Positions 1-62,628 of a stretch of 63,010 bases of DNA are shown here, piece by piece (the first letter of the stretch is position 1; the number at the start of each line of letters is the position of its first letter). A model generated the notes under the pieces. That model worked only from the letters and a program-made list of their open reading frames with translations, searched no databases and was not told where the DNA came from. Made by a program: the position numbers and the translations under genes. Origin of the DNA: Knoellia sp. Soil729 (lineage in GTDB: Bacteria; Actinomycetota; Actinomycetes; Actinomycetales; Dermatophilaceae); NCBI RefSeq assembly GCF_001427985.1, contig NZ_LMSA01000002.1, positions 1,045,546 through 1,108,555 of the forward strand, read 5' to 3'.

Positions 1-254
1 GCCAGCTCGGGTGCGTCGAGGCGTTGGTGTCCCAGGCCGTGGTGGACCTCGGCGGTGGTGCCGTCCTCCTGGCGCACGGGGTCGATCGCGGCCAGGTGGG
101 CCAGCGCCACTGCTTGCCGTGCCGTGGCGGCGTTGATCTCGGCCTGGGCCTGTTCCACGACGTCGAGGAGGTCGTCGGTGGTGAGGTGTGCAGCGGCACC
201 CAGCAGCGCGGCATACCGGCCCGCAAGGGCGGCGGTCGCGGTGTCCGGGTTCAT
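1..254 (-). CDS. DUF222/HNH endonuclease family protein, N-terminal part (cut by window edge)
   Basis: The reading frame starts at the ATG at 254 and runs leftward off the window after 84 residues, so only the N-terminal part is present. It begins MNPDTATAALAGRYAALLGA and continues as an Ala/Leu-rich helical segment typical of the DUF222 (13E12 repeat) domain, which normally precedes a C-terminal HNH nuclease domain. The HNH part is outside the window. A perfect LexA-type palindrome lies 15 bp upstream, supporting both the start and DNA-damage control. In vivo function of this multicopy actinobacterial family is not established. Two paralogs lie at 36363-38066 and at the right edge. Confidence 0.8.
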   Translation of the reverse strand, partial: MNPDTATAALAGRYAALLGAAAHLTTDDLLDVVEQAQAEINAATARQAVALAHLAAIDPVRQEDGTTAEVHHGLGHQRLDAPEL

Positions 255-268
255 GTCTCCATCATAGC

Positions 269-282
269 CGAACGCATGTTCG
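269..282. promoter_or_regulatory. LexA (SOS) box upstream of the left-edge DUF222 gene
   Basis: CGAACGCATGTTCG is a perfect palindrome of the form CGAAC-N4-GTTCG, the core of the actinobacterial LexA box. It sits 15 bp upstream of the ATG at 254 of the leftward DUF222 gene and about 85 bp from the rightward monooxygenase start at 365. LexA control of 13E12/DUF222 genes is known from mycobacteria; binding here is inferred. Confidence 0.75.
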
Positions 283-364
283 AGTGGAAGGAGAAACGAC
301 GCGAATTGTGTTCTGCCGCAGGCGAACACGCACGCCGTCGCGGTCATGATCCTAAGGTGGTCAC

Positions 365-1813
365 GTGCCGGACGTGATCATCGTGGGTGCCGGTCCGACC
401 GGCGTGATGTTGGCGAGCGAGCTGCGGCTCCACGGGGTCGAGGTCCTGCTCCTCGAGCGGGAGCTCGAGCCCTCACCCATGGTGCGCGCCCAAGGGATCC
501 ACGCCCGCACGATCGAGATCATGGAGCAGCGGGGGATGCTGGACCGTCTGCTTCCGCAGGGACAGGTGCATCCGACCGACCGCTTCTTCGCCGGCATCCA
601 GCCAAGCGAACCGGTGCGGCTCGACACCACGCACCCCTACGTCCTCGGCATCCCCCAACCCGAGGTGGAAAAGGTGCTCATGGAGCGCGCCGTCGAGCTC
701 GGCGTCGAGGTCCGGCGCGGCTGTGAGGTGGTCGGCGTGCACGAGGGTCGCGACGGTGCGGGCGTCGAGCTGGTCGGCGGCGAGCGGCTGCAGGCACGCT
801 TCGTCGTGGGCTGCGACGGCGGCCGGAGCACGGTGCGCAAGGCCCTGGGCATCGAGTTCGCCGGTGAGCCGGCGACCTCGGGCTGGATCCTCGGGGAGGT
901 CGAGCTGACCGCCACCACGGAGGAGGTCAGCGCGATCACGAAGCGGGTGCGCGAGACCCACAAGGGCTTCGGCATCGTCCCGCGCGACGGTGGGGTCTTC
1001 AGCGTCGTCACTCCTGCCGACCCGCCTTCGGACGACACTCCCCCGCCCACGATCGACGAGCTGCGAGCCCAGCTCACGGCATACGCGGGCAGTGATCTCG
1101 GTGCACACTCACCGCGGTGGCTCTCACGCTTCGGTGACGCAACGCGTCTGGCCGAGCACTACCGCAGGGGCAGCGTCCTCATCGCGGGCGACGCCGCCCA
1201 CGTGCATCCTCCGCAGGGTGGCCAAGGTCTCAACCTCGGCATCCAGGATGCCTTCAACCTCGGCTGGAAGCTCGCGGCGGCCGTGCGCGGCTGGTCTCCC
1301 CGAGGCCTGCTCGACACCTACGAGAGCGAGCGCCGACCGGTCGCGGCCGAGGTCCTGACGCTGACGCGGGCGCAGGCTCTGTTGCAGTCCGCCGAGCCCG
1401 GGCCGCGGGCCGTGCGGTCGCTCCTGGCCGAGCTCATGGAGCTCCCGGGCGTGCACCGTCACCTCATCGACAAGGTCACGTCCCTCGGAATCTGGTATGC
1501 CGTGGGCGAGGGCGAGCTTCTCGGTCAGCGTTCGCGAGACATCGCCTTCACGGGTGGGAGGCGCCTGTATCCGTTGCTGCGCAGCGGTCGTGGCGTTCTG
1601 GTCGACCAGACGGGCAGCCTCACGGTCAGCGGGTGGCACGACCGGGTCGACGTGCTCGCCGAGCGCTCCGACGAGCTCGACCCGCCGGCCGTGCTGCTGC
1701 GACCGGACGGGCACATCGTGTGGGTCGGCGACGACGAGAGCGACCTGGAGGAGGCGCTGCTCCGTTGGTTCGGAGCCTCGCTCAGCGGCCCTGCTGCGGC
1801 GAATGGGGCTTGA
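365..1813 (+). CDS. FAD-dependent aromatic monooxygenase (PheA/TfdB, polyketide hydroxylase type)
   Basis: The 482-residue protein is a class A flavoprotein hydroxylase that should use NAD(P)H and O2 to hydroxylate an aromatic substrate. It has the dinucleotide-binding GAGPTG at residues 8-13, the DG motif GCDGGRS near 149-155, and the GD motif GDAAHVHPPQGGQGLN near 275-290. A C-terminal thioredoxin-like domain of the phenol hydroxylase kind covers about 390-480. The GTG start at 365 follows AAGGTGG at 354-360, a good ribosome site. Its last 32 nt overlap the 3' end of the convergent cation transporter gene. The substrate cannot be told from sequence: polyketide tailoring and catabolism of a phenol are both possible, and no companion pathway genes are adjacent. 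Confidence 0.85.
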   Translation: MPDVIIVGAGPTGVMLASELRLHGVEVLLLERELEPSPMVRAQGIHARTIEIMEQRGMLDRLLPQGQVHPTDRFFAGIQPSEPVRLDTTHPYVLGIPQPEVEKVLMERAVELGVEVRRGCEVVGVHEGRDGAGVELVGGERLQARFVVGCDGGRSTVRKALGIEFAGEPATSGWILGEVELTATTEEVSAITKRVRETHKGFGIVPRDGGVFSVVTPADPPSDDTPPPTIDELRAQLTAYAGSDLGAHSPRWLSRFGDATRLAEHYRRGSVLIAGDAAHVHPPQGGQGLNLGIQDAFNLGWKLAAAVRGWSPRGLLDTYESERRPVAAEVLTLTRAQALLQSAEPGPRAVRSLLAELMELPGVHRHLIDKVTSLGIWYAVGEGELLGQRSRDIAFTGGRRLYPLLRSGRGVLVDQTGSLTVSGWHDRVDVLAERSDELDPPAVLLRPDGHIVWVGDDESDLEEALLRWFGASLSGPAAANGA

Positions 1814-5368: not shown

Positions 5369-5375
5369 GAGTGCG

Positions 5376-6593
5376 TCAGGCCGTCTGCTCGCGCAGGTAC
5401 CGCCCGAAGTGGGGCACCGTGAACGCGATCCGGCCCCGCTCGCCCGAATAGATGAGCCCCTTCTTGAGCAACGCATCCCGCGCTGGCGACAACGACTGCG
5501 GCTTGCGGCCCAGGTGGGTCGCCACGTCGGACGTCGGGACCGACTCGATGTCGTCAAGCTGCTCCTCGCCACGCTCACTGATCGCCACCGCCACGTCGGC
5601 CATGGCGCGCAGGTACTCGCGCTCGCCCGGCGTCGCCCGCTCGAACCGCGAGCCGAAGAACCCGACGGCCAGCTCCGACTCGGCCTCCGGTGCCGCAACC
5701 CGGACGTCGTCCGCCGTCACGGGAGAGCGAGGCGCCCGGTCCCACGCCGCCTTGCCGTAGGCCTGGATGAAGTAGGGGTAGCCACCCGTGGCGGCATACA
5801 TCGCGTCGAGCGCCTGGGAGTCGTAGGCCGCGCCCTCCTCCTGGGCGGGCACCACCAGCGCCGCGTCCGCAGCCGCGCGGGGCAGACGGCCGATGCGGGA
5901 GTAGCGGAACAGCCTCTCCGAGTAGGACTTCGACGCCGACAGCACGGCCGGCAGGTGCGGCAGGCCGGCACCGACGACGATGACGGGCAGCCCCGACTGC
6001 GAGATCTCGTGGCAGGCAGCGCACAACGCCGACACGTCGTCGGGGCCGAGGTCCTGCATCTCGTCGATGAAGACGGCGATCCCCCGCCCCGTGTCGGACG
6101 CCAGCCCACCCACGTCGGTCAGGAGCTCGACGAGGTCGATCTCGATGTCGCCCGAGTCGGCCCGCCCGGAGACCGCCGGTGCGTCGATCCCGGGGTTCCA
6201 CCTCTCGCGCAGCTTCGCGCCGGCAGGGGCATCACGCTGGGCGAAGGCCTTGATGACCCCGAGGACGTGCTGAACCTCCTCGTCGCTCGGGTGGCCGAGC
6301 TCTCGCACGGCCTGGTGCAGGGCCGAGGACAGCGGTCGCCGCAGCGACTGGTCGGGTCGCGCCTCGAGCTTGCCGGTCCCCCACTTGGCGCGAACGGCCG
6401 TTGACCGCAACGCATTGAGCAGCACCGTCTTGCCGACTCCGCGCAGGCCGGTGAGCACGATCGAACGCTCCGGACGTCCACGCGAGATCCGTTCGAGGAC
6501 GACCTCGAAGGCGTCGAGCTGCTCGTCACGACCCGCGAGCTCGGGCGGGCGCTGACCGGCGCCGGGGGCATAGGGGTTCCGAATGGGGTCCAC
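5376..6593 (-). CDS. AAA ATPase with C-terminal winged-helix region (ATP-binding protein)
   Basis: The 405-residue protein has Walker A GLRGVGKT at 49-56, Walker B near 166-177 (GIAVFIDEMQDL) and an AAA_16/Orc-like P-loop domain. The C-terminal region (about 300-400) reads as a winged-helix DNA-binding segment (SVPTSDVATHLGRKPQSLSP, then LLKKGLIYSGERGRIAFTVP). Starts at GTG 6593. It is followed 7 bp later by the deoxyribosyltransferase-like gene. Proteins of this kind are scattered in Actinobacteria with no firm function. An NTPase linked to a nucleoside-acting enzyme is suggestive of stress or phage defence, but nothing in the sequence proves it. Confidence 0.75.
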   Translation of the reverse strand: MDPIRNPYAPGAGQRPPELAGRDEQLDAFEVVLERISRGRPERSIVLTGLRGVGKTVLLNALRSTAVRAKWGTGKLEARPDQSLRRPLSSALHQAVRELGHPSDEEVQHVLGVIKAFAQRDAPAGAKLRERWNPGIDAPAVSGRADSGDIEIDLVELLTDVGGLASDTGRGIAVFIDEMQDLGPDDVSALCAACHEISQSGLPVIVVGAGLPHLPAVLSASKSYSERLFRYSRIGRLPRAAADAALVVPAQEEGAAYDSQALDAMYAATGGYPYFIQAYGKAAWDRAPRSPVTADDVRVAAPEAESELAVGFFGSRFERATPGEREYLRAMADVAVAISERGEEQLDDIESVPTSDVATHLGRKPQSLSPARDALLKKGLIYSGERGRIAFTVPHFGRYLREQTA

Positions 6594-6623: not shown

Positions 6624-6655
6624 ACGGCATACATCCGAATAAGCGGGTATGCCGT
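6624..6655. terminator. Intergenic hairpin made of an inverted ACGGCATAC / GTATGCCGT pair
   Basis: ACGGCATAC at 6624-6632 and GTATGCCGT at 6647-6655 are perfect complements around a 14-nt loop that can pair further (TCCG with CGGG). It lies between the rhodanese stop (6672, leftward) and the ATPase start (6593), so it can terminate the rhodanese transcript. There is no clear U-tract. It is one of two places where the genome-wide CGGCATAC word appears as an inverted pair. Confidence 0.55.
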
Positions 6656-7151: not shown

Positions 7152-8012
7152 CTACTTGAGGAACTTGCTCGTGCGGCGGTCGGCCAGGGGCTTGCCGCCG
7201 GTCTGGCAGGTCGCGCAGTACTGCAGCGAGGAGTCCGCGAACGAGACCTCACGCACGACGTCGCCGCACTCGGGGCAGATCTCGCCGGTGCGACCGTGGA
7301 CCCGCATCCCCTGGCGCTTGGCGTCCTTGAGCTCGGCGGCCGGCTTGCCCGACGCCGCGAGGACCGCAGCCGACAGCGTCTCCCGCAGTGCGGCATACAG
7401 GCGTTTGCTCTGCTCGTCGTCGAGCTTCGCGGCCATCGCGAAGGGTGACAGCTTGGCGACGTGCAGGATCTCGTCGGAGTAGGCGTTGCCGACGCCAGCG
7501 AGAATCTTCTGGTCGCGCAGGACACCCTTGACCTGGGCGTTGCGCGACGACAGGATCTCGCGGAAGGCCTCGAGCGAGAACGCGTCCGCGAGCGGGTCGG
7601 GCCCAAGTGCGGCGATCCCCGGCACATCGCCTGGGTCCGAGACGATGTAGGCCGCGAGCGACTTCTTGGTCCCGGCCTCCGTGAGGTCGAAGCCGGACCC
7701 GTCGGACAGGCGCACGCGCAGGGCGATCGGCGACTTGCCCGGCCGCAGCGTCGTCGGCGAGATCGAGTCCGACCAGCGCAGCCACCCTGCCCGGGCGAGG
7801 TGGAAGACGAGATGCGTTCCGCCACAGTCGAGGTCGAGGAACTTGCCGTGCCGCGTCACCGACTCCACGGGCGCACCCACGAGCGCTTCGGGCGGCGGGT
7901 TGAACGTCTTGAGCACCGAGAACGAGCCGAGCTCGACGCCGGTGACGGCCAGGTCGGCCGTGCGCTCAGTCAGGAAGTCGACCAGCGCCTGGACCTCGGG
8001 CAGCTCTGGCAC
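7152..8012 (-). CDS. Fpg/Nei family DNA glycosylase
   Basis: The 286-residue protein has the invariant start PELPEVQ after the initiator (GTG 8012), so Pro2 is the Schiff-base nucleophile. It has the lysine in RHGKFLDL, the helix-two-turn-helix region, and a C-terminal zinc finger (CPECGD then YCATCQ). It excises oxidised bases and nicks the abasic site. The finger departs from classical MutM: the usual Gly-Arg-Ser/Thr lesion-reading motif before the second Cys pair is not seen (FADSSLQYC instead), and the tail runs 18 residues beyond the last Cys. It may therefore be an Nei2/Fpg2-like paralog rather than the main 8-oxoguanine glycosylase. The App1 gene ends 4 bp upstream. Confidence 0.88.
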   Translation of the reverse strand: MPELPEVQALVDFLTERTADLAVTGVELGSFSVLKTFNPPPEALVGAPVESVTRHGKFLDLDCGGTHLVFHLARAGWLRWSDSISPTTLRPGKSPIALRVRLSDGSGFDLTEAGTKKSLAAYIVSDPGDVPGIAALGPDPLADAFSLEAFREILSSRNAQVKGVLRDQKILAGVGNAYSDEILHVAKLSPFAMAAKLDDEQSKRLYAALRETLSAAVLAASGKPAAELKDAKRQGMRVHGRTGEICPECGDVVREVSFADSSLQYCATCQTGGKPLADRRTSKFLK

Positions 8013-11161: not shown

Positions 11162-11214
11162 GCGGCGACCGACCCGTGGGTGCCGTGCCCGACGCCCAAC
11201 CACCACCCGCGCGT

Positions 11215-12771
11215 ATGCCGTTGGCCCGCCTTGTCGAGGCGGCCGACGCCCTCGTGGCGACCCGGTCGCGGACGGCCAAGACCGACGTCCTGGCCGGGGT
11301 GCTGGGCGACCTGTTCCCCGACGAGGCCGAGGCTGCCGTGGGGCTCCTGCTCGGCAGGCTGCGACAGGGGTCGATCGGCCTCGGTTACCGCACCGTGCTG
11401 TCGGCGCGTGAGGGTGCGCCCGCGGCGTCCGAGCCGACGCTCACCGTCGCCGACGTCGACGCCGTGCTCGACACCATCGCGGCCCTGGGTGGCTCCGGCT
11501 CTGCCGGTGCTCGCAACGCCGCCCTGACCGCGCTGTTCGAGCGGGCGACCGCCCCCGAGCAGGAGCACCTCGTGCGCGCCATGACCGGCGAGATGCGCAC
11601 CGGTGCCCTCGAGGGCGTGCTCACCGATGGCCTCGCCAAGGCCGTGGGGCTGCCGCTGGCCGAGGTGCGGCGAGCTGTCATGCTCAGCGGTTCGCTGCCC
11701 GGGACGGTGCGGCTGGCGCTCGAGCACCCCGAGGCCCTCACCGACGTGGGGCTGGCGGTGCTCACCCCCGTGCAGCCGATGCTGGCCTCCACCGCGACCG
11801 ACGTCGCCGCCGCGCTCGCGGTGACGGGCGAGGCGTCCGTGGAGCACAAGCTCGACGGCGCCCGGATCCAGGTGCATCGCAGCGGATCCGACGTGCGCGT
11901 GTTCACCCGCTCGCTCGCCGACATCACCGCACGCGTCCCGGAGATCGTCGAGGTCGCGCTGACGCTTCCGGCCGAGTCGATCATCCTCGACGGCGAGACG
12001 CTCATGCTCGACGACAGCGGCTCGCCGCGGCCGTTCCAGGACACCATGAGCCGCTTCGGTGCCGACGCCGCGCGTGAGCAGGTGCTGGCCCCACGGTTCT
12101 TCGACGTCCTGCACGTCGACGGCGAGGACCTCATCGACCGGCCGCTCTCGCAGCGGCTCGCGGCGCTCGAACGCATCGCGCCGGCATACCGGATCGCTGG
12201 TGAGGTGACCACGGACCCAGCCGTCGCCGAGCGCGTCGCCGACGAGGCACTCGCCGCCGGTCACGAGGGGGTCATGGTCAAGGGCATCGACACGGCCTAC
12301 GCCGCGGGGCGCCGGGGCAAGCATTGGGTCAAGGTCAAGCCGGTGCACACCTACGACCTCGTCGTGCTCGGCGTCGAGCGTGGGTCGGGCCGGCGCAAGG
12401 GCTGGCTTTCCAACCTGCACCTCGGCGCCCGCGACCCCGAGGGCGAGTTCGGGCCGGCGGGGGGCTTCGTCATGGTCGGCAAGACGTTCAAGGGGCTCAC
12501 CGACGAGCTGCTGCGCTGGCAGACCGAGACCTTTCCCCAGCATGCCGTCGACGACAACGGGTGGGTGCTCACGATGCGACCCGACGTCGTCGTCGAGGTG
12601 GCCATCGACGGGGTGCAGCGTTCGTCGCGCTACCCCGGCGGGGTCGCCCTGCGGTTCGCGCGGGTCAAGCGCTACCGCGTCGAGGACGCACCGGGTGGGG
12701 AGTCCGCCCTCCAGGCCAAGGCCCCCGCCGAGGCCGACACCATCCAGTCACTGCGCGCGCTGCTGCGCTGA
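11215..12771 (+). CDS. ATP-dependent DNA ligase
   Basis: The 518-residue ligase resembles mycobacterial LigB and archaeal ligases. An N-terminal DNA-binding domain covers about 1-200. The nucleotidyltransferase motif EHKLDGARIQVHR supplies the AMP-accepting lysine near residue 212, followed by motif III/IIIa (LDGETLM), motif IV (EGVMVKG) and motif V (WVKVKP). An OB-fold C-terminus ends at 12771. The ATG at 11215 begins the conserved MPLARLVEAADAL; GTG codons at 11176 and 11185 in the same frame are alternative starts. It is an accessory ligase, since the replicative bacterial enzyme is NAD-dependent. Confidence 0.9.
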   Translation: MPLARLVEAADALVATRSRTAKTDVLAGVLGDLFPDEAEAAVGLLLGRLRQGSIGLGYRTVLSAREGAPAASEPTLTVADVDAVLDTIAALGGSGSAGARNAALTALFERATAPEQEHLVRAMTGEMRTGALEGVLTDGLAKAVGLPLAEVRRAVMLSGSLPGTVRLALEHPEALTDVGLAVLTPVQPMLASTATDVAAALAVTGEASVEHKLDGARIQVHRSGSDVRVFTRSLADITARVPEIVEVALTLPAESIILDGETLMLDDSGSPRPFQDTMSRFGADAAREQVLAPRFFDVLHVDGEDLIDRPLSQRLAALERIAPAYRIAGEVTTDPAVAERVADEALAAGHEGVMVKGIDTAYAAGRRGKHWVKVKPVHTYDLVVLGVERGSGRRKGWLSNLHLGARDPEGEFGPAGGFVMVGKTFKGLTDELLRWQTETFPQHAVDDNGWVLTMRPDVVVEVAIDGVQRSSRYPGGVALRFARVKRYRVEDAPGGESALQAKAPAEADTIQSLRALLR

Positions 12772-13497: not shown

Positions 13498-14442
13498 TCA
13501 GGACACGAGGATCGACGCGGGGGTGGTCGTCGCGGCGGTGAGGACGTCGGCCTCAGGGAGACCGGCGACCTCCACGGCCCACCGGACGCAGTCGGCCAGC
13601 GTGGACGTCGACCCGGCGATCGAGCCGCGCCCGGAGCCACCGTCCGCGAGGCGCGCCACCCCACTGGCCACCTCCACCTCGAGCGTGCCGATCGTGTAGT
13701 CGCCGTCGCCCAGGCCGGTCGCCGCCATGGCGTCCGACACGAGAGCGATGTGCTCGGGACCGACGGTCTCGAAGACCATGCGCACGACCTCGGGCGCGAC
13801 GTGCACCCCGTCGGTGATGAGCTCGACGATGCAGTCGCCGCGCGCCCCGGCGGCGAGCGCGGCAGCGACGGGACCGCCGGCGCGGTGGTGGAAGGGCGGC
13901 ATACCGTTGAAGAGGTGAGTCACCAGCGGCGGGCGCCCGCAGGTGTCGGCGATCGAGGCGAGCATCGCCGTGACGACCCCGGCGGACGCGTCCGTGTGGC
14001 CCACGGCCGGCAGGATGCCGTGCCGTGCCAAGGCCTTGACGAGCCCCGCGGAGCCGACGCGCTCGGGCGCAAAGGTCCACTGCACCAACGCGTCCCGCAC
14101 GCCTGCCTCGGCGCAGGTCGACACGAGCGACTCGACGAGGGCCAGGTCGGGGTCGGTGAGCACCGACGGGTCGTGCGCCCCCCGGCGCTCCTCGGACAGG
14201 AACGGTCCCTCGAGGTGGATCCCGGCGAGTTCCCCCGACGCCACGAGCGGCGCCAGGGTCGCGACCTGGGCGATGAGGGTGTCGGGGCGACCGGAGACGA
14301 GCGAGCCGACGAGCGTCGTGACGCCGGCCGCGTGGTGGTGCTCGGCGGCCTCCGCCGACCCCTGGGTGTCCTGGCCGAACTCGTGCCCGAGAGCTCCGTG
14401 GCAGTGCAGGTCGACGAGGTCGGTGGCGTTCGGGAAGCTCAC
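13498..14442 (-). CDS. N-acetyl(hexosamine)-6-phosphate deacetylase, barrel-only form (NagA/AgaA type)
   Basis: The 314-residue protein has the full set of amidohydrolase barrel motifs of NagA: DLHCHGALG, HLEGPFLS, VGHTDASA, THLFNGMPPFHHR, ITDGVHVAPE and LVSDAMAATG. It should deacetylate GlcNAc-6-P or GalNAc-6-P. It is about 70 residues shorter than E. coli NagA. It begins at the first metal motif, with an in-frame TAG four codons before the GTG start, and it ends just after the TTTPASIL helix. Both halves of the small beta-sandwich domain are therefore missing. It closes the leftward transport operon. With the SIS isomerase, aldolase, PfkB and ROK genes nearby, a GalNAc pathway is the better fit. 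Confidence 0.85.
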   Translation of the reverse strand: MSFPNATDLVDLHCHGALGHEFGQDTQGSAEAAEHHHAAGVTTLVGSLVSGRPDTLIAQVATLAPLVASGELAGIHLEGPFLSEERRGAHDPSVLTDPDLALVESLVSTCAEAGVRDALVQWTFAPERVGSAGLVKALARHGILPAVGHTDASAGVVTAMLASIADTCGRPPLVTHLFNGMPPFHHRAGGPVAAALAAGARGDCIVELITDGVHVAPEVVRMVFETVGPEHIALVSDAMAATGLGDGDYTIGTLEVEVASGVARLADGGSGRGSIAGSTSTLADCVRWAVEVAGLPEADVLTAATTTPASILVS

Positions 14443-14516: not shown

Positions 14517-15413
14517 TCATTTGAGGGTTCCCTGGGACAGGGACCCCTGGAGCTGGCGCTGCGAGAAGATGTAGACCGCGAGGACGGGGACGATCGTGAT
14601 GACGACCGCAGCGAAGAGCTGGCCGAAGTCCACGGCATACCCGGCCTGTGAGGCGAAGCGCGCCATGCCCTGCGACAGGACGTAGTTGTCCTCGGTGGTG
14701 TTGAGGGCCACGGGAAGGAGGAACTGGTTCCACATGCCGAGGAAGTTGAAGATCGAGATCGCGACGATGCCCGGGCGGGCCATCGGCAGCATCACCTGGA
14801 AGAACGTGCGCCACTCCCCTGCCCCGTCGAGCTCGGCCGCTTCGGCGATCTCGTGCGGCAGCCCCCGGAAGAACGGGAAGAGGAAGAACACGGTGAAGGG
14901 GAACGCGAACGCCACGTAGGTCGCAATGAGGCCCGGGAGGGTGTTGAGGAGTCCCGTGTTCTTGAGGACGAAGAACAGCGGCACGATCGCGAGGAAGACG
15001 GGGAAGGTCAGGCCCGCGAGGATCAGGTAGTAGACGAGTCCGCTGCCGGGGAACGGGTAGCGCGCCAGCGAGTAGGCCGCCATGGAGCCCAGGATCATCA
15101 CGAGGACGAGCGAGACGGTCACGACGATGACGGAGTTGAGCATGTAGCGGCCGATGTGGGAGTCGGTCCACGCCCCGATGTAGTTGTCGAAGCTCCAGCT
15201 CTGCGGCAGCGACAGCGGTGACTGGAAGATCTCGCCGGTCGTCTTCCACGAGGACAGGAAGACCCACAGCAGAGGCAGGACGACGATGATCGTCCAGATC
15301 GTGAGGACGACGTGGGACACCACGGTGACCTTGCGGTCGCCCTTGGCCTTGGGACTCGGGGCGTCACGGTCGGGGGTGCCCGTCGTGACGCCGGTGTCGA
15401 TGTCGGTCGCCAT
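14517..15413 (-). CDS. Carbohydrate ABC transporter permease (MalG family)
   Basis: The 298-residue inner-membrane permease has six hydrophobic segments and the EAA loop EAAELDGAGEWRTFFQVMLP that docks on the ATPase. It is the second permease of a CUT1-type sugar importer. Start ATG 15413 overlaps the previous stop by one nucleotide (TGATG). No ATPase gene is in the cluster, which is usual for actinobacterial CUT1 importers that share a common MsiK-type ATPase. Confidence 0.92.
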   Translation of the reverse strand: MATDIDTGVTTGTPDRDAPSPKAKGDRKVTVVSHVVLTIWTIIVVLPLLWVFLSSWKTTGEIFQSPLSLPQSWSFDNYIGAWTDSHIGRYMLNSVIVVTVSLVLVMILGSMAAYSLARYPFPGSGLVYYLILAGLTFPVFLAIVPLFFVLKNTGLLNTLPGLIATYVAFAFPFTVFFLFPFFRGLPHEIAEAAELDGAGEWRTFFQVMLPMARPGIVAISIFNFLGMWNQFLLPVALNTTEDNYVLSQGMARFASQAGYAVDFGQLFAAVVITIVPVLAVYIFSQRQLQGSLSQGTLK

Positions 15414-42833: not shown

Positions 42834-43256
42834 GTGACCCACCGTCCGTGTTTCCACCTCGCCATCCCTGTCGACGACATCGCCGCGGCGCGCGAGTTCT
42901 ACGGCGGCGTCCTCGGACTGAGCGAGGGCCGCTCGGCCGACGTCTGGATCGACTGGAACTTCTATGGCCACCAGGTCGTGACGCACCAGGTGCCGGTCCA
43001 CCCCGGATCTGCAGGTCACAACCACGTCGACTCCCACGAGGTCCCGGTCCCCCACTTCGGCGCCGTGCTCTCCACCGGGGACTTCCACGACCTTGCCGAC
43101 ACGATGAAGGCAGCCGGTGCGACGTTCGTCATCGAGCCCTACCTGAGGTTCGAGGGCCAGCCGGGCGAGCAGTGGACGATGTTCTTCCTCGACCCGGCCG
43201 GCAACGCCATGGAGTTCAAGGCCTTCGCCGACGAGTCCCAGATCTTCGCGAAGTAG
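42834..43256 (+). CDS. VOC family protein (dioxygenase/glyoxalase-like)
   Basis: The 140-residue single VOC domain has FHLAIPVDDIAAAREFYGGV, a central GHQVVTHQVPVHPG..HNHVDSHEVPVPHFG region rich in His, and the closing strand FFLDPAGNAMEFKAF with the metal-ligand Glu. It resembles the lyase/dioxygenase-like branch. GTG start at 42834. It is followed 11 bp later by a GntR regulator gene, so it is likely an inducible enzyme for the regulator's ligand. Confidence 0.85.
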   Translation: MTHRPCFHLAIPVDDIAAAREFYGGVLGLSEGRSADVWIDWNFYGHQVVTHQVPVHPGSAGHNHVDSHEVPVPHFGAVLSTGDFHDLADTMKAAGATFVIEPYLRFEGQPGEQWTMFFLDPAGNAMEFKAFADESQIFAK

Positions 43257-49092: not shown

Positions 49093-50003
49093 TCAGGGCC
49101 GAGCGGGGTCAGTGCGCTGATCGCGCAGGCGCCGGACGACGTCCACAAGCGCGGCACCCTCGGCAGGGGTGAGGTTGGCGCCGAGGCCGTCGACGAGCTC
49201 GGGCAGCGTGTCGAAGTCGTCGGGCGTGATCGCCCGGTGCTCGGTCGGCCGCCGCGGCCGCCGGACAGTCACGGCGTCCTCGCTCATGGAGACGATGACG
49301 GCGGTGCCGTCCGAGTCGACTCCGTGCGCGACGCACATGAGGGACGTCATGAAGTGGCTCGTCGTCTTGGTGCTGGTCCAGTGGTGCCCCATGGCGACGT
49401 CGACCGGCCTCACCGGCAGCGTGTCGATGGTGTGCACCCGCTCCCACTCTTCTCCGGTGTGCCGCAGGACTTCCCACACATCGACCGTGCCGTCCTTCGC
49501 TGCCCGTATGCCGTGTCGCCACCCTTGCGCCGTCACGTCGGCTCCGTCCACGAGCGGGATCGGACCAGCGGCGAGCGACCGACACCCGGGTCGCAGACCA
49601 GTGGCTGACCATCGAGTTCGACCTCGACGGTGAGGTGCGTGCGAGGGGCGAGCTGCGGGTCACCGACCCGACCGAGGTGACGCGTCACGGCATACCCCAG
49701 GCGTTCGAGAACGGCGGCGAAGAGTGAGGAGTGCTCGAAGCAGTAGCCGCCACGTCCGCGACCGACGAACTTCTCCTGGATTGCGGCAAGCGTGACGCCG
49801 GGGTCGGCGCCGAGGAGGACGTCGATGTTGTCGAAGGTGAAGGCGCGCACGTGCGCGGTCTGGAGTCGGGTCAGCGCGTCCAGACTGGGCGGCTCTTGGT
49901 CGACACCTACCTTCGCGAGATAGGCGTCGAGGTCCAGGGTCTCGGTCAGCCACGGGTCAGCGGGCAGGGCGTCAGTTTCGCTCCGGTCCCGGGGATCGTG
50001 CAT
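49093..50003 (-). pseudogene. Arylamine N-acetyltransferase interrupted by a -1 frameshift
   Basis: The N-terminal frame (ATG 50003 to TGA 49533) carries the NAT catalytic triad: Cys in GRGGYCFEHSSLF, His in RTHLTVEVE and Asp in LVCDPGVG. After CDPGVGRSPL it runs into unrelated SRSWTEPT and stops. The C-terminal half of NAT (PIPLVDGADVTAQGWRHGI, then HHWTSTKTTSHFMTSLMC) continues in the next frame to 49093. The switch is at the GG at 49565-49566: one extra G (GGG) would restore one reading frame of about 303 residues. NAT transfers acetyl from acetyl-CoA to arylamines. Sequencing error in a G run or a real inactivating deletion are both possible. Overlaps the copper ATPase stop by one nucleotide. 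Confidence 0.85.
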
Positions 50004-52469: not shown

Positions 52470-53177
52470 ATGGACCTCGGCGCTGACCTCACCTCGCGCG
52501 TCGCGTCCGCCGCGCCCGGCCTCGACACGGGGGCGCTCGCGACGGCTGCCCTCGCCGCCCTGGCAGTCGTCCTCATCCCGATGGTCTGGCTGCGGCTGCG
52601 CATCGCCGTGACCCTCGTCCACGAGCTCGGCCACGCCGTCGTCGGCGTCGCGTTCGGGCGCCGCTTCACCGGCTTCGTCGTGCGCGGGGACATGTCCGGC
52701 CATGCCGTGACCGTTGGCCCAGCTCGCGGTGTCGGCCGGGTCGCGACGACGTGGGCCGGCTACCCGATGCCGGCGCTCGTGGGCCTGCTCATGGTCTGGA
52801 CGGCAACGACGGGGTATGCCGCGGCGCTGCTCTTGGGATGCCTCGTCACCTTGGTCGTCGTGCTCGTCTTCGTGCGCTCCGCCGGGACGCTGGTCACGGT
52901 GGCTGCAGCGGCGGCCGGGGTCGGGGCGCTGTGGTGGTGGCGGCACGACGAGGTCCAGGTCCTGGCCGTCGTCACGACCGGGCTGGTCCTGCTCGTCGGC
53001 GCCTGGCGCCACCTCGGGGCGGTGGCGTCGTCGCACGGCCGACGGGACCCGGGAAGTGACGCGGCGGTGCTGAGGCGACTGACCGGCATACCGGCTTCGG
53101 TGTGGCTGCTGACGTTCGCCGCCACGCTCGCGGGAGCGACGTGGATCATCGCGCGACTGCTGCTTGACCTTGCCTGA
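52470..53177 (+). CDS. M50-family-like membrane metalloprotease (peptidase M50B-like)
   Basis: The 235-residue polytopic protein has the zinc motif HELGH at residues 51-55 inside a membrane segment, followed by AVVGVAFGRRFTGFVVRGDM, and four to five more hydrophobic segments. The M50B-like actinobacterial group has no known substrate and lacks a PDZ domain. ATG 52470; a hydrophilic 20-residue N-terminus precedes TM1. Convergent to the next gene. Confidence 0.8.
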   Translation: MDLGADLTSRVASAAPGLDTGALATAALAALAVVLIPMVWLRLRIAVTLVHELGHAVVGVAFGRRFTGFVVRGDMSGHAVTVGPARGVGRVATTWAGYPMPALVGLLMVWTATTGYAAALLLGCLVTLVVVLVFVRSAGTLVTVAAAAAGVGALWWWRHDEVQVLAVVTTGLVLLVGAWRHLGAVASSHGRRDPGSDAAVLRRLTGIPASVWLLTFAATLAGATWIIARLLLDLA

Positions 53178-55116: not shown

Positions 55117-56142
55117 ATGCTCGGCCATGCCGATCGCACGTGGCGCACTCACGACGTCGCAGCTCCAGAGCAGTTCAGGGCTTGGGAGCGAATGGCGACC
55201 GAGGCTTTCGCGCCGGTGTCACTGTCCCGGTCGCCAGGGGATGAGGGCGATGCCGGGTTCCTCACGGCCTGTTCCACCCGGGCTGTGGACGACCTCGGCA
55301 TCGCCTGGCTCGACTCCGGAGCGCAGCAGGTCCACCACCTGAGCCGTCACGTCGCCCAAGGTCCTTCGGGCACCTACTTCCTCAACCTGCCCCTCGTCGG
55401 CGAGGGCATGGCCCTGCAGGACGGTCGCGTGAGCGTGACCGGGCCGGGGGACTTCGTCCTGGTGGACGGTGACCGGCCCTTCACGCTCGAGTTCGGGACG
55501 CGATTCCAGCAGCTTGCCATCGCCATCCCGCGACACCGGCTGGACCCGCTGCTCGCGGACCCGACCCAGTCGAACTGCGTGGTCATCAAGGGCGATACGG
55601 GCGCCGGCGCCATCGCCTCCACCGCGATCCAGTCGCTCGCCGCGCAACGGTGCCGGCTCAGGCCCCGAGAGGCCCACGGCATCGCCAACGTCCTCGTGGA
55701 GCTCGTCTCCCTCGCCGTCACCGCAGCGGTGGAGCAGCGTCCGGCCCCGTTGCGGCTGCGTCGCTTCCAGGCCGTGCTCGACGAGGTCGAGCGTCGCCTG
55801 TGCGACCCTGGTTTGCGTCCGCAGGACGTGGCTCGCGAGCTCTCGATCTCGGTGAGCTACCTGACCAAGCTCTGCTCCGAGCACGGCACGAGCTTCGGGC
55901 GCATAGTCCTGAACCGTCGGCTCGATCGGGCGCGTTCCCTGCTCACCGCGGAGGCGGCCGCGGGCGGCGCCGGCGCCGGTATGACCGTGACCGAGGTGGC
56001 GAATGCGTGCGGCTTCTCGGACTCCGGCTACTTCGCCCGGGCCTTCCGGGCCCGGTTCGGGACCACGCCCACCGAGCACCGCTGCGCGACAGCGCAACGC
56101 GAGCGGCCGGCATACACGACATCGGTGGGACGAACTCCCTAG
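55117..56142 (+). CDS. AraC family transcriptional regulator
   Basis: The 341-residue protein has an N-terminal AraC_binding_2-like cupin region (LPLVGEGMALQDGRVSVTGPGDFVLVD) and a C-terminal double helix-turn-helix: DVARELSISVSYLTKLCSEH, then MTVTEVANACGFSDSGYFARAF and FGTTPTEHR. ATG 55117 follows GGAGAG. The ligand and regulon are unknown; NrfB/feaR-like regulators have this architecture. Upstream sequence contains the DnaA-box-like cluster. Confidence 0.9.
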   Translation: MLGHADRTWRTHDVAAPEQFRAWERMATEAFAPVSLSRSPGDEGDAGFLTACSTRAVDDLGIAWLDSGAQQVHHLSRHVAQGPSGTYFLNLPLVGEGMALQDGRVSVTGPGDFVLVDGDRPFTLEFGTRFQQLAIAIPRHRLDPLLADPTQSNCVVIKGDTGAGAIASTAIQSLAAQRCRLRPREAHGIANVLVELVSLAVTAAVEQRPAPLRLRRFQAVLDEVERRLCDPGLRPQDVARELSISVSYLTKLCSEHGTSFGRIVLNRRLDRARSLLTAEAAAGGAGAGMTVTEVANACGFSDSGYFARAFRARFGTTPTEHRCATAQRERPAYTTSVGRTP

Positions 56143-56719: not shown

Positions 56720-57487
56720 TCAGAAGACGGTGTAGCCGCCGTCGATGACGAGGACCGACCCGGTCATGAAGCTCGCAGCGTCCGACGCCAGGAACACCAC
56801 GGCCGGACTGATCTCGTCCGGCACCGCGTAGCGCTGCTGCGGCGCGTCCTCGATCCAGAACCGTTGGAACTGCGGCTCGTCGACCGGGGCCATGTCCGTC
56901 TTGACATAGCCCGGTGCCACCGCGTTGACCCGAACCCCGGAGGGCGCCCACTCGGCTGCCAGCGACTTGGTCAGCTGGTGCACAGCAGCCTTGGAGGCGT
57001 TGTATGCCGGTTGCCACTGTGGGCGGTTGACGATCATCCCCGAGATCGAACCGACGTTGACGATGCTTCCGGTCCGCCGCTCGACCATGTGGGCTCCCAC
57101 CGCCTGCGACACCCGCCACAGGGCGGTGAGGTTGGTGTCGATGACCTGGGCCCACTCGTCGTCGGTCACCTCGAGGGCGGGCCGGTGCACGCATGCTCCG
57201 GCGTTGTTGACGAGGATGTCGATGCTCCCCGCGCGGGCCAACGACTCGGCCACCACGGCATCGACCGACTCGCGGCTCGTCAGCTCGCCGAGGACGACGT
57301 GGGCGGTGCGCCCGAGGGACTCGACCTCGGCCCGGACCTCTTCGCCGGCTTGGGCATCCCGGCCGTGGATGACGACGTCACCGCCGGCCTCGGCGATGGC
57401 CCGGGCGAACGCCCGGCCGAGACCTCGGGTCGCACCGGTCACCAGCGCGGTGCGGCCCTCGAGCGAGAACGTGTCCAGGACTGCCAT
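56720..57487 (-). CDS. SDR family oxidoreductase (gluconate 5-dehydrogenase/FabG-like)
   Basis: The 255-residue classical SDR has the TGATRGLG cofactor loop, DILVNNAGA, catalytic Ser in VNVGSISG, Tyr-x3-Lys in AYNASKAAV and the C-terminal SVLVIDGGYTVF. It should reduce or oxidise an alcohol/ketone with NAD(P)(H). ATG 57487. It forms a leftward pair with the next SDR gene, 32 bp upstream. Confidence 0.9.
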   Translation of the reverse strand: MAVLDTFSLEGRTALVTGATRGLGRAFARAIAEAGGDVVIHGRDAQAGEEVRAEVESLGRTAHVVLGELTSRESVDAVVAESLARAGSIDILVNNAGACVHRPALEVTDDEWAQVIDTNLTALWRVSQAVGAHMVERRTGSIVNVGSISGMIVNRPQWQPAYNASKAAVHQLTKSLAAEWAPSGVRVNAVAPGYVKTDMAPVDEPQFQRFWIEDAPQQRYAVPDEISPAVVFLASDAASFMTGSVLVIDGGYTVF

Positions 57488-57519: not shown

Positions 57520-58476
57520 TCAGGGGGTGAGGTCGAGGGCGCCGGCGGTCCATTGCCACATGCGGCGGCGCTCGTCGGGTGTCGGCTTCGTCCTCGGCAG
57601 GAAGGAGGTGGGGCGTTCCCGCCGGTCCATCCACAGGCCCCCGCCGGTCGGCCGGGGTTGGGCGGCGAGAAGCCAGGTGGTCGTGTCGGCGCCGGCGTCC
57701 ACGTCGCGCAGGAGCGGGCCCATGACCTTGTCGAACGTCGGGAGTGAGTCGCTGACGCCGGGCGTCGCGGCCCACCCGGGGTGCATGACATAGGTTTCGA
57801 TGCCGTGCGCGGCCCAACGGTCCGAGAGGACCGGCAACAGCTCGACCTGGGTCCGCTTGCTGCGGGCATAGGCAGTGGAGCCGGAGTACTCGCCGCGCGT
57901 GTAGTCGGGGTCGTCGACGGGGAGCTTCTGGGTGTACATCCCGCCCGAGGTCACGAAGACCACGCGCGCGTCGCCGCCCTCGAGGGCCGGCAGCAGGAGC
58001 TCGGTGAGCAGCACCGGCCCGAGCACGTGCAGCGACATCGACAGCTCGTGCCCCTGCGGTGACTCGGTGCGCGTCGGCGGCATGGCACCCGCGTTGTGCA
58101 CGAGCCCTTCGAGGTGGAGGTCGGCGGCAAGCATCTCCGCCGCGCAGGCCCGCACGCTGTCGAGGTCACCGAGGTCGCACGACCACGTGGTCGACGGTCC
58201 GGTGAGGTCGGCGGCCACGCCGGCAGCCTTGTCGGCGTTGCGGACGATGAGGTGGACGTGGGCACCGAGAGCGCTCAGCTGTCTCGCCGTGGCGGTCCCG
58301 AGCCCGGAGGTGGCACCCGTGACCGCGACGTGGCGACCAGCCAGTGCCCCGACGGCGGGGTCGGCCGGCCACGTCGGGAGGCGACGGCGCACGGCATACC
58401 CGATCTTCGAGAAGCCGGGCACGACGGCTCGGTCGAGTGCTGTGTCCAGGGCGGCGGCAACCGGGCGGGGGTCCAT
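57520..58476 (-). CDS. SDR family oxidoreductase (retinol-dehydrogenase-like)
   Basis: The 318-residue SDR has an N-terminal extension of about 45 residues, TGATSGLG, the D for NADP in CDLGDLDSV, VHNAGAM, Ser in VFVTSGGMY and the YARSKRTQV catalytic Tyr/Lys. This arrangement resembles WW-domain oxidoreductase/retinol dehydrogenase-like proteins that act on lipophilic substrates. ATG 58476. Probably co-transcribed with the other SDR. Confidence 0.88.
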   Translation of the reverse strand: MDPRPVAAALDTALDRAVVPGFSKIGYAVRRRLPTWPADPAVGALAGRHVAVTGATSGLGTATARQLSALGAHVHLIVRNADKAAGVAADLTGPSTTWSCDLGDLDSVRACAAEMLAADLHLEGLVHNAGAMPPTRTESPQGHELSMSLHVLGPVLLTELLLPALEGGDARVVFVTSGGMYTQKLPVDDPDYTRGEYSGSTAYARSKRTQVELLPVLSDRWAAHGIETYVMHPGWAATPGVSDSLPTFDKVMGPLLRDVDAGADTTTWLLAAQPRPTGGGLWMDRRERPTSFLPRTKPTPDERRRMWQWTAGALDLTP

Positions 58477-59500: not shown

Positions 59501-59539
59501 GTATGCCGTGTGGTCACCTGAGGTGACCACACGGCATAC
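59501..59539. terminator. Bidirectional terminator with inverted GTATGCCG/CGGCATAC pair
   Basis: GTATGCCGTGTGGTCACC (59501-59518) and GGTGACCACACGGCATAC (59522-59539) are exact 18-bp complements around a 3-nt centre (TGA). It starts right after the SRPBCC stop and lies 21 bp from the converging propeller stop, so it can end both transcripts. Each arm tip is one copy of the window-wide word. Confidence 0.8.
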
Positions 59540-59560
59540 GCCGGGGTTGTGCGTTTGTGG

Positions 59561-62335
59561 TCAGAGGCTCGTGAGAGCCACCTTCCAGATGCCGCGGCCG
59601 TGGGTCGCGGCGTAGAGACTGCCGTCCGGCGCGACGTTGAGGTCGAAGACGGTCGACAGCGGGAGGGCACCCGCCGTGCCGGAGACGCCACCGACGCGCT
59701 TCCACGACGTGACGTTGCCGTCGCTGTCGAGGGAGCCGACCAGCACGCCGTAGTCGGTGCCGGCCACGAGCGAGTGGCCGACGTGGACGAGGTCGGTGAA
59801 CGGGACGTCCGGGGTGCCGGCCGACTCGTTCGTCCAGGTGACGCCGCCGCTCTTGCTGAGCACGCCCTTCCAGACGTGGTCCTGCTGGGCGCCGGGACCC
59901 TCGATGAAGCGGCGGTTGTAGCCGTTGAACGCGACGTAGACGGTCGCCGAGTCCGCCGAGACGGAGTCGATGTAGACCGCGTTGGGGTAGCGGTTGGGCA
60001 GACCGGTCATGTCGAGCTCGTGCCAGGCGCCACCGAAGTTGGTTTGCACACCCCGGGTGAACCCGGCGCTGTTGCAGTTTGACTCACCACACCAGCCAGC
60101 GACGACGACATCCTTCGTCGCGTCCTGCTTGGCACTGGGGTCGGCGACGGCGTCCAAGGCGACGGTCATGCGACCACCGCTGCCGAGCGTGGCGCGCTTG
60201 GTCCAGCCGTGCGCGGACAGGGTCGCCGCCTGGTTCGCCGTGGTGGCGAAGCCGAGGTCGTCGCTCCAGATGGAGTTGCCACCAGCCACCCAGCGCTCAC
60301 TGGCGTGGTCACCGGTGTTCTCCGAGCCGCGGACGACGCGGAAGGGAGCGGTGAAGCGCGGGTTGGGGTCCGGAACGCTCACGTCGATGATGGCGCTCTT
60401 GGACCCGTCCGTCTGGCCGCAGTTGGTGGTCATCCAGAGCACGAGGTCGGTGTACTCGTCGAGGATGTTGCACCCGTTCCTGGGGTCGACGATGCTGTCG
60501 CCGCCGTCGCCGCCGAACGGGCTGACCATCTCGGTGTGGCCCTGGTTGTCCTTGCGGTCACCACGCACGAGGGCTCCGCCGTTGTCCTGGAGGCCACCGA
60601 AGACGGTGTAGCCGGCGCGCTCCGGGTCCTTGCCGACGCCGACCGAGTAGTACTGCAGCGTGCCGAGGCCTGGCGAGTGGTTCGCCCAGTCCGTCGCGTT
60701 GCCCTGGGCGTTGACCTTGCCGTTGACCGGGCGGGACTTCACACCACCGTCGTTGCCGACGTAGACCCGACCGCCGCTGACGACGATCGAGTGCTGGTCG
60801 GAGTGGGTGGTCTGCGGACAGGTGTTGTCCGACTCCTTGAGGGACCAGCACTTGAAGCCGAAGTTCCAGTAGGGACCGACCGTTGTCCAGCTGGAGCCGG
60901 CGTTGGTGGTCTCGTAGACCTCCTCGAGGCCGAGCCACACGTGGTTGGGGTTGCCCGGCTCGGTCTCGATGAAGTTGTTGTACCAGGCCTGGACGCCGGG
61001 GCTGTAGCCCTTGCCGGCGAACCCGTGCAGGGCCGAGGTGGAGTTGCCGAGCTTGTTGCTGTCGGCGATGCGGTTCCACGGGCCCTCGAGGGTCCCGCTC
61101 GAGGACCGGTAGACGCCGTCGAGGACGGTGTCGGCTCCCTTGAGAAGCCGCTGGGGCGACTCGACGACGGTGTAGAGGACGGTCTTCTTGCCGGCCTTGT
61201 CGGTGCCCCAGGCGAACTCGGCGTTGCCGACCGACTGGTTGGCGAGGGCACCTTGGGGCTGGACGACCGCGTAGGTGCCGTTGGCTCCGGTCGCGCTCTT
61301 GTAGAAGCCGTTGTAGGCCGCACCGCTGCGCCAGGCCGCATTCGCGAGCACGGCGCCGGAGTCGTCGATCGCGACGTCGTTGACCATGTTGTTGTAGGGC
61401 GCGGCAATGTTGGAGTCGTCGGCCGGGTTGGGCATCAGGACGTTGGTCCAGTTCGTCGCTGCCTGGGGCGCACCGCTGGCGGCGAGCGGGTAGCGCCACA
61501 GGCCACGGGTCGTCGCGGCGTAGGCCCAGTGGTGCACGTCGTCGAAGCGAACCTTGTTGATGCCGCGGCTCTCGAGTTCGGTGCCGCCCAGCCGGTCGCC
61601 GTCCGTGAACTGCGCGGCCGTGGCGTTCGCGTCGGCTGCGCGGCCGTTGCGGAACATGCCCGCGCCGACATAGGAGGTGCCGCCGGTGTTGGCCTCACCC
61701 GTGGCGTACCAGAGGGCGTTGTCGTGCCACTCGAGGTCACCCGTGGACAACGAAAGGATCTTGTCCGAGAGGGGCTGCCACGCTCCGTCGTCCGAGGGGT
61801 CGGCCGCCACGTTGAGCTTCTTGCGCCACACGCCACCGTTGGCGCCGCCGGCGAAGAGGTAGCCGCCACCGACCGCCAGACCGGTCACCCGTCCGGCGAC
61901 GAAGCCCGCTCCGCCCGACGAGTTCGAGAAGCTCGGGTCGCGGTAGTTGGGGTCATCGGCGTCGTAGCTGAGGTTGGTGACCTCGCTCCACGCACTGCCG
62001 TTGGACGCCAGCGAGCGGAAGTTGCCCAGGCTGTTCGAGAGCTGGCCGGCCGCGACCGAACCGTAGGGCGCCAGTCGCGCATTGGCGGTCGAGGTGAGCG
62101 AGGCAAAGATCTCGCTGGACTCCGAGGACGGGTCGCCGACCTTGCCCTCGATGCCGTGCTCTGCGGCCTCGCGCGCGGCCTCGTCACCGCCGGCCTTCTC
62201 GAGATAGCCGCGGTAGTGCGGCTGGCTGTTCTCCTCCTGGATGTGGGCGTAGATGCCCCCGGCTGCCCCTGCTGCGATGAGTGCGCTTGCCGCGGTGGCG
62301 GCGAGCAACCTCTGTCGTACTGCTCGTGTTGCCAT
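59561..62335 (-). CDS. Secreted multi-bladed beta-propeller (BNR/sialidase-like) protein
   Basis: The 924-residue protein has an N-terminal signal (RQRLLAATAASALIAAGAAG, probable cleavage before HIQEE). It is dominated by beta-propeller blades with Asp-box-like repeats (TTNAGSSWTTVG, SKSGGVTWTN), GGLQDNGG and GNPNHVWLGLEEVY segments, as in WD40/YVTN/BNR or VPS10-type sialidase-fold proteins. Several Cys pairs may form disulfides. No sialidase Arg triad or RIP motif is convincing, so enzymatic activity is uncertain; glycan or peptide binding outside the cell is likely. ATG 62335 follows AGGAGGGCATAC. Confidence 0.78.
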   Translation of the reverse strand: MATRAVRQRLLAATAASALIAAGAAGGIYAHIQEENSQPHYRGYLEKAGGDEAAREAAEHGIEGKVGDPSSESSEIFASLTSTANARLAPYGSVAAGQLSNSLGNFRSLASNGSAWSEVTNLSYDADDPNYRDPSFSNSSGGAGFVAGRVTGLAVGGGYLFAGGANGGVWRKKLNVAADPSDDGAWQPLSDKILSLSTGDLEWHDNALWYATGEANTGGTSYVGAGMFRNGRAADANATAAQFTDGDRLGGTELESRGINKVRFDDVHHWAYAATTRGLWRYPLAASGAPQAATNWTNVLMPNPADDSNIAAPYNNMVNDVAIDDSGAVLANAAWRSGAAYNGFYKSATGANGTYAVVQPQGALANQSVGNAEFAWGTDKAGKKTVLYTVVESPQRLLKGADTVLDGVYRSSSGTLEGPWNRIADSNKLGNSTSALHGFAGKGYSPGVQAWYNNFIETEPGNPNHVWLGLEEVYETTNAGSSWTTVGPYWNFGFKCWSLKESDNTCPQTTHSDQHSIVVSGGRVYVGNDGGVKSRPVNGKVNAQGNATDWANHSPGLGTLQYYSVGVGKDPERAGYTVFGGLQDNGGALVRGDRKDNQGHTEMVSPFGGDGGDSIVDPRNGCNILDEYTDLVLWMTTNCGQTDGSKSAIIDVSVPDPNPRFTAPFRVVRGSENTGDHASERWVAGGNSIWSDDLGFATTANQAATLSAHGWTKRATLGSGGRMTVALDAVADPSAKQDATKDVVVAGWCGESNCNSAGFTRGVQTNFGGAWHELDMTGLPNRYPNAVYIDSVSADSATVYVAFNGYNRRFIEGPGAQQDHVWKGVLSKSGGVTWTNESAGTPDVPFTDLVHVGHSLVAGTDYGVLVGSLDSDGNVTSWKRVGGVSGTAGALPLSTVFDLNVAPDGSLYAATHGRGIWKVALTSL

Positions 62336-62628
62336 GTATGCCCTCCTGGGGCGCGAATCCTCCTGAATGGGTGGGGTGTGCCGCGGATCCGGCCGCCACG
62401 AAGGGGGGTCGCAGGCATCGGCGCATTGGGGAACCTACGCCCATGACGAGGGGGCTGAGAAGACCAAAGAACTTCCGAGTTTCCGGCCGTTCTCAGGGTC
62501 CTTTCAGGTGACGTCTGTCATGCGGAGGATGGCCACGAGAGCCAGCCCCGGGATCGGCGCCGGCAGAGGTGTTACGAGCCCAACCCCCCGGGTATGCCGG
62601 TGGGCTGGGTCACGCGGAGGCGGTCACG
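62336..62628. other. Gene-free stretch between the propeller and the right-edge DUF222 gene
   Basis: This should hold the propeller promoter. CTGAGAA (62455-62461) and TTCTCAG (62491-62497) form a 7-bp inverted repeat with a 29-nt loop. AGCCCA..TGGGCT (62577-62606) is a second hairpin, carrying one GTATGCCG, suited to terminate the leftward DUF222 transcript. No gene is convincing. Confidence 0.5.

Follow-up and report, generated by a model that had tools for sequence, protein, structure and literature searches.

What keeps one short DNA word recurring, on both strands, along an actinobacterial chromosome? The question is raised by a 63,010-nucleotide stretch of Knoellia sp. Soil729 (contig NZ_LMSA01000002.1, positions 1,045,546 to 1,108,555; contig C2 in our numbering; hereafter the window) and by the 8-mer CGGCATAC. 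A first-pass annotation of the window had claimed about 40 dispersed copies on both strands, and an exact scan finds precisely 40 (23 plus, 17 minus) spanning positions 209 to 62599. Dinucleotide shuffling of the window (100 shuffles) yields a mean of 0.70 copies and a maximum of 3, while an order-3 Markov model expects 1.95 and ranks CGGCATAC as the most deviant 8-mer there. The excess extends well beyond the window, with 245 copies observed against 10.6 expected under the same model in 400 kb of the same contig and 2138 copies in the 3.6-Mb genome against 89 of the reversed word, so that the count does not fall back to expectation in the rest of the chromosome. We propose that CGGCATAC is the DNA uptake sequence (DUS) of its lineage, a predicted function to which we assign a probability of roughly 80%.

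The copies show no preferred orientation. Genome-wide they divide 1083 to 1055 between the strands, and within each of eight 50-kb bins covering the 400 kb the two strands hold similar numbers, in agreement with the annotation's view that the word is unlike the FtsK orienting polar sequences (KOPS); KOPS-like replichore polarisation is thus not seen, with the qualification that GC skew is about zero over the binned 400 kb and replichores are therefore not resolved there.

The most mundane explanation for such a word would be biased codon pairs, dipeptides or composition, or else a family of dispersed repeats. We called genes with a simple caller of our own in the 400 kb plus the window (463 kb, 413 genes; its overlap rule missed at least one real gene, at 365-1813). 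Shuffling synonymous codons within these genes left 19.0 ± 4.0 copies (at most 28 in any of 60 shuffles), far short of the 198 real ones, so a codon-aware model does not predict the count, and codon-pair bias, which the annotation had listed as an alternative, is excluded as the cause. The word also imposes rare codons, as the annotation had proposed: 21 of the 31 ATA codons in the called genes lie inside it, as do 88 of 302 TAT and 69 of 1322 GCA codons. Arithmetic from the gene frames places such an ATA at each of three positions singled out earlier, as Gly-Ile in the M50 peptidase gene (53084..53091, plus strand), as Gly-Ile in the ABC ATPase gene (33796..33803, minus strand), and near the start of the latter gene (34909..34916, minus strand). 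The claim that copies sit in all reading frames holds insofar as all six are used; the use is very uneven, with 157 of the 198 coding copies in two frames, encoding Ala-Tyr or Tyr-Ala, which is the one point in favor of such a bias. Within those contexts CGGCATAC spells 69 of 166 [TPAS]-Ala-Tyr tripeptides and 88 of 200 Tyr-Ala-[VADEG] contexts, and its one-base synonymous neighbor CGGCGTAC is scarce (23 copies, where 640 kb of word-poor relatives would lead one to expect 112 after scaling); many available sites have therefore been converted.

Nor is the signal confined to coding sequence. Under a generous rule for what counts as coding, 81 of 285 copies cannot be placed in any plausible reading frame; the 10.1% of the sequence that contains them has 1.73 copies per kb, and the rest has 0.49. 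Between called genes, the gaps no longer than 250 bp add up to 22.9 kb, with 48 copies. The flanks show weak preferences only, the strongest being an A before the word (47%), which also counts against an origin in bias or repeats. Genome count, codon shuffle, intergenic surplus and the dialects described below together refute an origin in bias or repeats, to which we give next to no chance.

The copies are spread more evenly than random placement would produce (variance/mean of 0.48 per 10 kb, P = 0.002), and every one of forty 10-kb bins contains at least 3. At the shortest distances the arrangement is one of inverted pairs: 14 of 15 neighbors less than 60 bp apart are inverted, 11 of these lying between genes as called by the same simple caller, and about 10% of copies belong to close inverted pairs. 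The intergenic inverted pairs reported earlier from the window are real. One pairs a left arm at 6625..6632 (plus) with a right arm at 6647..6654 (minus), and the other, a hairpin with 18-nt arms, pairs 59501..59508 (minus), right behind the stop codon that closes the called gene 59036-59500, with 59532..59539 (plus).

Over longer distances a second rule appears. Between 9 and 1000 bp apart, the genome holds 28 same-strand pairs of CGGCATAC against 85.8 expected and 99 opposite-strand pairs against 86.4. Permuting strands over fixed positions gives the same picture below 1 kb, where 29 of 128 pairs share a strand and 63.9 ± 5.7 would be expected to; the exclusion persists when pairs closer than 200 bp are removed (26 of 92 against 45.8) and is gone at 1 to 2 kb (78 of 166 against 82.8). 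It can be seen in the window alone (6 of 24 pairs, P = 0.006) and in 41 pooled loci from other genomes rich in the word (81 of 280 against 140.3 ± 8.4 below 1 kb; the loci were the 44 of 138 that reached 3 words per 10 kb, minus 3 that overlapped others), and five control words in the Knoellia genome show no such effect. Two words that occupy related genera (see below) behave likewise. CGGCATCC has 64 of 162 same-strand pairs below 1 kb in genome G178 (80.9 ± 6.3 expected, P = 0.003), and the fuller form of the Janibacter motif has 6 of 37 below 500 bp (18.5 ± 3.1) and 26 of 74 below 1 kb (36.9 ± 4.3). Spacing is also even for CGGCATCC (variance/mean 0.47 per 10 kb, P = 0.03), with a weaker tendency for the Janibacter word (0.64, P = 0.12). 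Same-strand neighbors are thus excluded within about 1 kb, and opposite-strand neighbors are not, for all three words. The simplest reading is one of polarity, in which two same-facing words within 1 kb are redundant and two opposite-facing words are not.

Polarity brings to mind Chi, an overrepresented 8-mer whose sequence varies from taxon to taxon and which works in a single orientation. A Chi-like hotspot here would be a polar word that stops an end-resecting helicase-nuclease (RecBCD, AddAB or AdnAB) and loads recombinase, and a polar effect reaching about 1 kb would be compatible with the exclusion of same-strand neighbors. The arrangement of Chi in Escherichia coli is the opposite one: in 450 kb, 35 of 40 close pairs are on the same strand, against 29 of 128 for CGGCATAC. 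RecBCD itself appears patchy in the family, RecC being found in 89 of 186 genomes and in 0 of 9 of the window's genus, and because RecC is not found in the genus and its presence elsewhere does not follow the words, a RecBCD-Chi system is unlikely. The hotspot would also leave the intergenic excess, the hairpins and the near absence of the word from some congeners unexplained, and we regard it as improbable.

The even spacing, the balanced strands and the filled 10-kb bins would suit a site for a chromosome-organizing or nucleoid-associated protein, spaced to compact or segregate the chromosome. A strand-specific exclusion would not be expected of such a site, and neither would the taxonomic behavior of the word. 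We counted CGGCATAC in 186 genomes from 53 genera of the family (Dermatophilaceae/Intrasporangiaceae). All 9 genomes of the window's genus carry between 1971 and 3277 copies, and across the family 110 genomes carry at least 300 and 76 carry fewer (tallied by eye from the table of counts). Among 396 genomes drawn from the order, the 362 that belong to other families all stay at 180 copies or below; the two highest counts, 180 and 177, are accompanied by 195 and 135 of the reversed word, and in the remainder the ratio of word to reversed word reaches about 3 at most. Inside otherwise rich genera, with congeners at about 390 to 3700 copies, the word is nearly lost from G016 (37 copies, 89% complete), G083 (19) and G113 (50).

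Some relatives carry a different word instead. Samples of 40 kb from 20 word-poor family genomes revealed strong other words in 3 and a weaker one in G153. CCCCCTTCG, with a fuller form of about [AG]CGAAGGG[AG][AG], is carried at 797 to 1939 copies by every one of the 19 genomes in the Janibacter-like genera g27 and g35 and at no more than 80 by the other 167; among named Janibacter loci it is present in 6 of 7, the short locus L146 being the one without it. CGGCATCC reaches 3619 to 4480 copies in G025, G026, G042, G043 and G178. Two congeners of G042 in genus g15 carry CGGCATCC and CGGCATAC together (2195 + 1217 in G044, 2099 + 1189 in G045), possibly a state in transition. On a ComEC tree of 80 rows with five labels (the three words, none, and outgroup), 12 label changes are needed against a shuffled mean of 34.3, with the labels of short loci resting on few copies and one mixed genome labeled by CGGCATAC; the Knoellia ComEC is 80% identical to that of K. 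subterranea and 74% to that of K. remsis. Word dialects follow phylogeny in these related taxa, and CGGCATCC sits at two separate places on the tree.

Individual sites are also maintained. In pairs of Knoellia genomes, aligned words are kept in 6/7, 4/5, 9/10 and 4/7 cases, at a background of 20 to 28% identity for any 8-mer, and closer Humibacillus- and Terrabacter-type pairs keep 9/10, 11/12 and 6/7 (34-58% for any 8-mer). Of the orthologous CGGCATAC sites of word-rich loci, 39 of 305 aligned read CGGCATCC in loci of the CGGCATCC (CC) type and 29 of 520 do so in word-poor loci, some of which are Phycicoccus and maybe weakly CC. The aligned pairs are not independent, and we consider the comparison suggestive of replacement of CGGCATAC by CGGCATCC in place.

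Further dialects are possible, because the Janibacter word itself does not rise far over some weaker candidates at the size of our scans (23 copies against 2.6). Codon-shuffle scans of 15 word-poor genomes (33-104 kb each) found nothing like the Knoellia word (73 against 5.5) or the G178 word. Three words stand at about 6 to 9 times this null and may reflect codon effects or additional, weak dialects: ACCGCATC in G082 (L071/L072/L010; 18 against 2.3, coding only), GTACGCCGA in G023 (L049/L050/L294; 14 against 1.6) and CGTAGACC in G016 (L043/L044/L293; 21 against 3.2). We also considered words of the CGGCGTAC type as a hidden dialect and rejected them as ordinary Ala-Tyr codons.

Near absence from G016, G083 and G113 and exchange for an unrelated word in other genera would not be expected of a nucleoid site, which we judge very unlikely. 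Words that are non-palindromic, contain adenines, are specific to the family and differ between genera could instead be self-recognition marks of a modification-based defense or restriction system, for example non-palindromic adenine methylation sites. Restriction usually leads to site avoidance, the opposite of a 24-fold excess over the reversed word, and modification leaves the even spacing and the strand exclusion unexplained; this origin seems to us more doubtful still. Neither a nucleoid site nor a modification site would jointly explain polarity, dialect swaps and abrupt loss, and while nucleoid, methylation and recombination functions are each possible, they fit less well than DNA uptake.

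The annotation's comparison with the uptake sequences of Neisseria and Haemophilus is supported by the dialects, even spacing, intergenic surplus, inverted pairs and balanced strands. In the parts of the literature available to us, lineage-specific words, even spacing, intergenic excess, inverted pairs and lack of orientation bias are published genomic signs of uptake sequences (PMC1939737, PMC3630211), and since CGGCATAC displays all of these, they support a function in uptake. The DUS of Neisseriaceae, as those same parts describe them, likewise number in the thousands, form genus dialects, include one genome with two dialects, are in excess outside genes, occur at about 10% in inverted repeats and show no orientation bias. 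They differ in that all DUS share a three-base core and CGGCATAC and CCCCCTTCG have none in common, and in that the hosts of CGGCATAC are Gram-positive Actinobacteria in which N_methyl prepilins (the type IVa/ComG kind) were found in only 4 of 186 genomes, for which reason a ComP homologue is not expected in the family. The uptake signal sequences (USS) of Pasteurellaceae are described in the available text as a 9-mer with two dialects, 65% inside reading frames in H. influenzae (204 of 285 for CGGCATAC) and evenly spaced, the last attributed there to Karlin et al. (PMC1939737); according to the portion sampled of PMC12616744, the USS extends to a 17-mer whose tail is AT-rich, unlike the weakly constrained flanks of CGGCATAC. 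The same-strand exclusion is not described in the uptake-sequence literature sampled, including its accounts of USS. Among the literature matches listed there is nothing bearing on CGGCATAC itself and no uptake word for Actinobacteria, subscription journals and preprints having been outside the search.

We hypothesize that competent cells would favor extracellular DNA bearing CGGCATAC for binding and import, and that transformation followed by homologous recombination would keep spreading and restoring the words, a molecular drive of the kind proposed for Neisseria DUS and Haemophilus USS. A single word would help one strand, or one side, to be imported or to be rescued into a recombinant, such that within a span of about 1 kb an additional same-strand copy would be redundant and an opposite-strand copy would not. 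In related genera CGGCATAC has been replaced by others, CCCCCTTCG and CGGCATCC. The likely machine is a Tad/Flp-type pilus together with ComEA and ComEC, given that prepilins of the type IVa/ComG kind are found in so few genomes, and a Tad minor pilin may read the word.

The genes for such a machine are present. ComEC is encoded in the Knoellia genome and in 180 of 186 family genomes, comEA is present in the Knoellia genome and adjoins comEC in all 28 loci scanned, and TadE is found in 181 of 186. The com genes that the annotation had suggested looking for are present. We tried ComEC, TadE and N_methyl as markers of word richness and set them aside, the first two being near universal and the last nearly absent. 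A close parallel is Micrococcus luteus, an actinobacterium with comEA/comEC, no comG cluster and a requirement for Tad/Flp pili in transformation, so that it shares with the family its Flp/Tad pili and ComEA/ComEC; the part of that study available makes no mention of an uptake word (PMC6370729).

Three types of Tad locus were distinguished by eye among 20 regions. A compact type, tadA-tadB-tadC-flp-tadE-tadF-like-tadG-like, recurs in word-rich genera and lies at C2:165697-170270 in the Knoellia genome. Its TadE, TadF-like and TadG-like pilins are candidates for the receptor. The TadF-like minor pilin (C2:166185-166619) has a conserved cysteine pair (C...PC) and, in the one member scanned, no Pfam family match. 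A search that scored 20 candidates per genome, and so may have missed some, matched this pilin in 165 of 186 genomes, G178 apparently being among the 21 without a match. The 12 genomes of genera g2, g12, g16, g29 and g37, each with few copies of any of the three words, gave no match either, and in tblastn searches with TadA of 11 of these 12 (all but G032) we found only a distant paralogue at 32-41% identity, or nothing in the case of G079. Several early-branching, word-poor lineages on the ComEC tree (G012, G022, G028, G184) have the Tad locus, entire or in part, suggesting a machine that predates the word. The ends of Janibacter-type TadF proteins differ from the others (VP.Y.. against VDRF, among the Flp, TadE, TadF and TadG of 42 genomes); as a dialect-reading residue this end was rejected, since the word-poor G076 shares it and phylogeny may explain it.

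Several of these loci are interrupted. The word-poor G083 has about 37 kb splitting tadC (L287:7532-8884, L286; contig C1, about 271.6-308.5 kb), with a protein at the edge of the insertion that reads by eye like a large serine recombinase; its ComEC (L083:8582-8597) is in two overlapping pieces in different frames, possibly a frameshift or a sequencing error. In the word-poor G098 (L298/L299), about 35 kb split tadA of the compact locus. The breaking of competence genes by mobile elements is known elsewhere. The G178 locus (L288) has about 6 kb without flp, tadE or tadF matches between tadC and the end of tadG.

A number of observations weigh against a Tad-read uptake word. Genes and word do not correspond closely: comEA and comEC occur in word-bearing and wordless genomes alike and thus do not predict the word, the compact Tad locus is apparently complete in the word-poor G016, G018, G022, G023, G088 and G113 (3 matches have internal stop marks), and among word-rich genomes G002, G003, G072 and G123 retain only tadA fragments and G178 an interrupted locus, for which recent decay would have to be the explanation. 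Absence of the compact locus fits word poverty in five genera, and its presence does not suffice. Among the rows listed for 42 genomes, no sequence change in TadE, TadF, TadG or Flp is tied to dialect beyond phylogeny. No enrichment is seen when the 24 one-mismatch variants of CGGCATAC are pooled (340 copies, where word-poor relatives give 398 after scaling); one-off copies of kingDUS, by contrast, add 21% to its count in the part of PMC3630211 available. Site conservation erodes with distance, to 8/17 in a pair of Pedococcus-type loci (20% for any 8-mer) and 0/5 in an Ornithinimicrobium locus pair (16%), and the plain Janibacter 9-mer shows no significant same-strand exclusion (22 against 27.3). 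What the genomes show is the enrichment, the dialects, the kept sites, the rules of spacing and strand and the presence of the genes; a role in uptake, the reading of the word by a Tad minor pilin and drive as the cause are inferences from them. On balance we regard CGGCATAC, with its dialects, as a strong candidate for a new DNA uptake sequence that evolved independently in Gram-positive bacteria. We would put at even odds the fuller proposition that this family independently evolved a Gram-positive self-DNA recognition by a Tad-type pilus able to read a strand-polar word, each word marking about 1 kb of one strand, with alternating labels, lineages swapping the word for unrelated ones and some genomes midway with two.

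Besides the two inverted pairs and the three ATA-bearing copies located above, the word scan of the window places CGGCATAC on the plus strand at 209..216, 1077..1084, 5792..5799, 7391..7398, 12182..12189, 13897..13904, 14633..14640, 19701..19708, 22098..22105, 24488..24495, 27316..27323, 28474..28481, 28618..28625, 33239..33246, 36210..36217, 37670..37677, 38970..38977, 49688..49695, 56108..56115 and 58392..58399. On the minus strand it lies at 1495..1502, 11213..11220, 18913..18920, 21730..21737, 22575..22582, 28208..28215, 29342..29349, 40138..40145, 42827..42834, 49506..49513, 52814..52821, 57002..57009 and 62592..62599.

The uptake sequences in the literature sampled belong to two Gram-negative families that use type IV pili. 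If our proposal is true, the words of this family would be a third, independent case built on a different pilus, making uptake sequences a recurring outcome of competence rather than an oddity and providing a replicate for testing why they evolve. The two-word genomes and word-poor congeners offer natural experiments, and the same-strand exclusion is a quantitative constraint that may separate models of uptake, drive and repair. A practical use may be to place the word on donor DNA so as to make poorly tractable soil and wastewater bacteria transformable. If confirmed, sequence-tagged bacterial sex would exist in this family in a separate form, built differently from that of Neisseria and Haemophilus.

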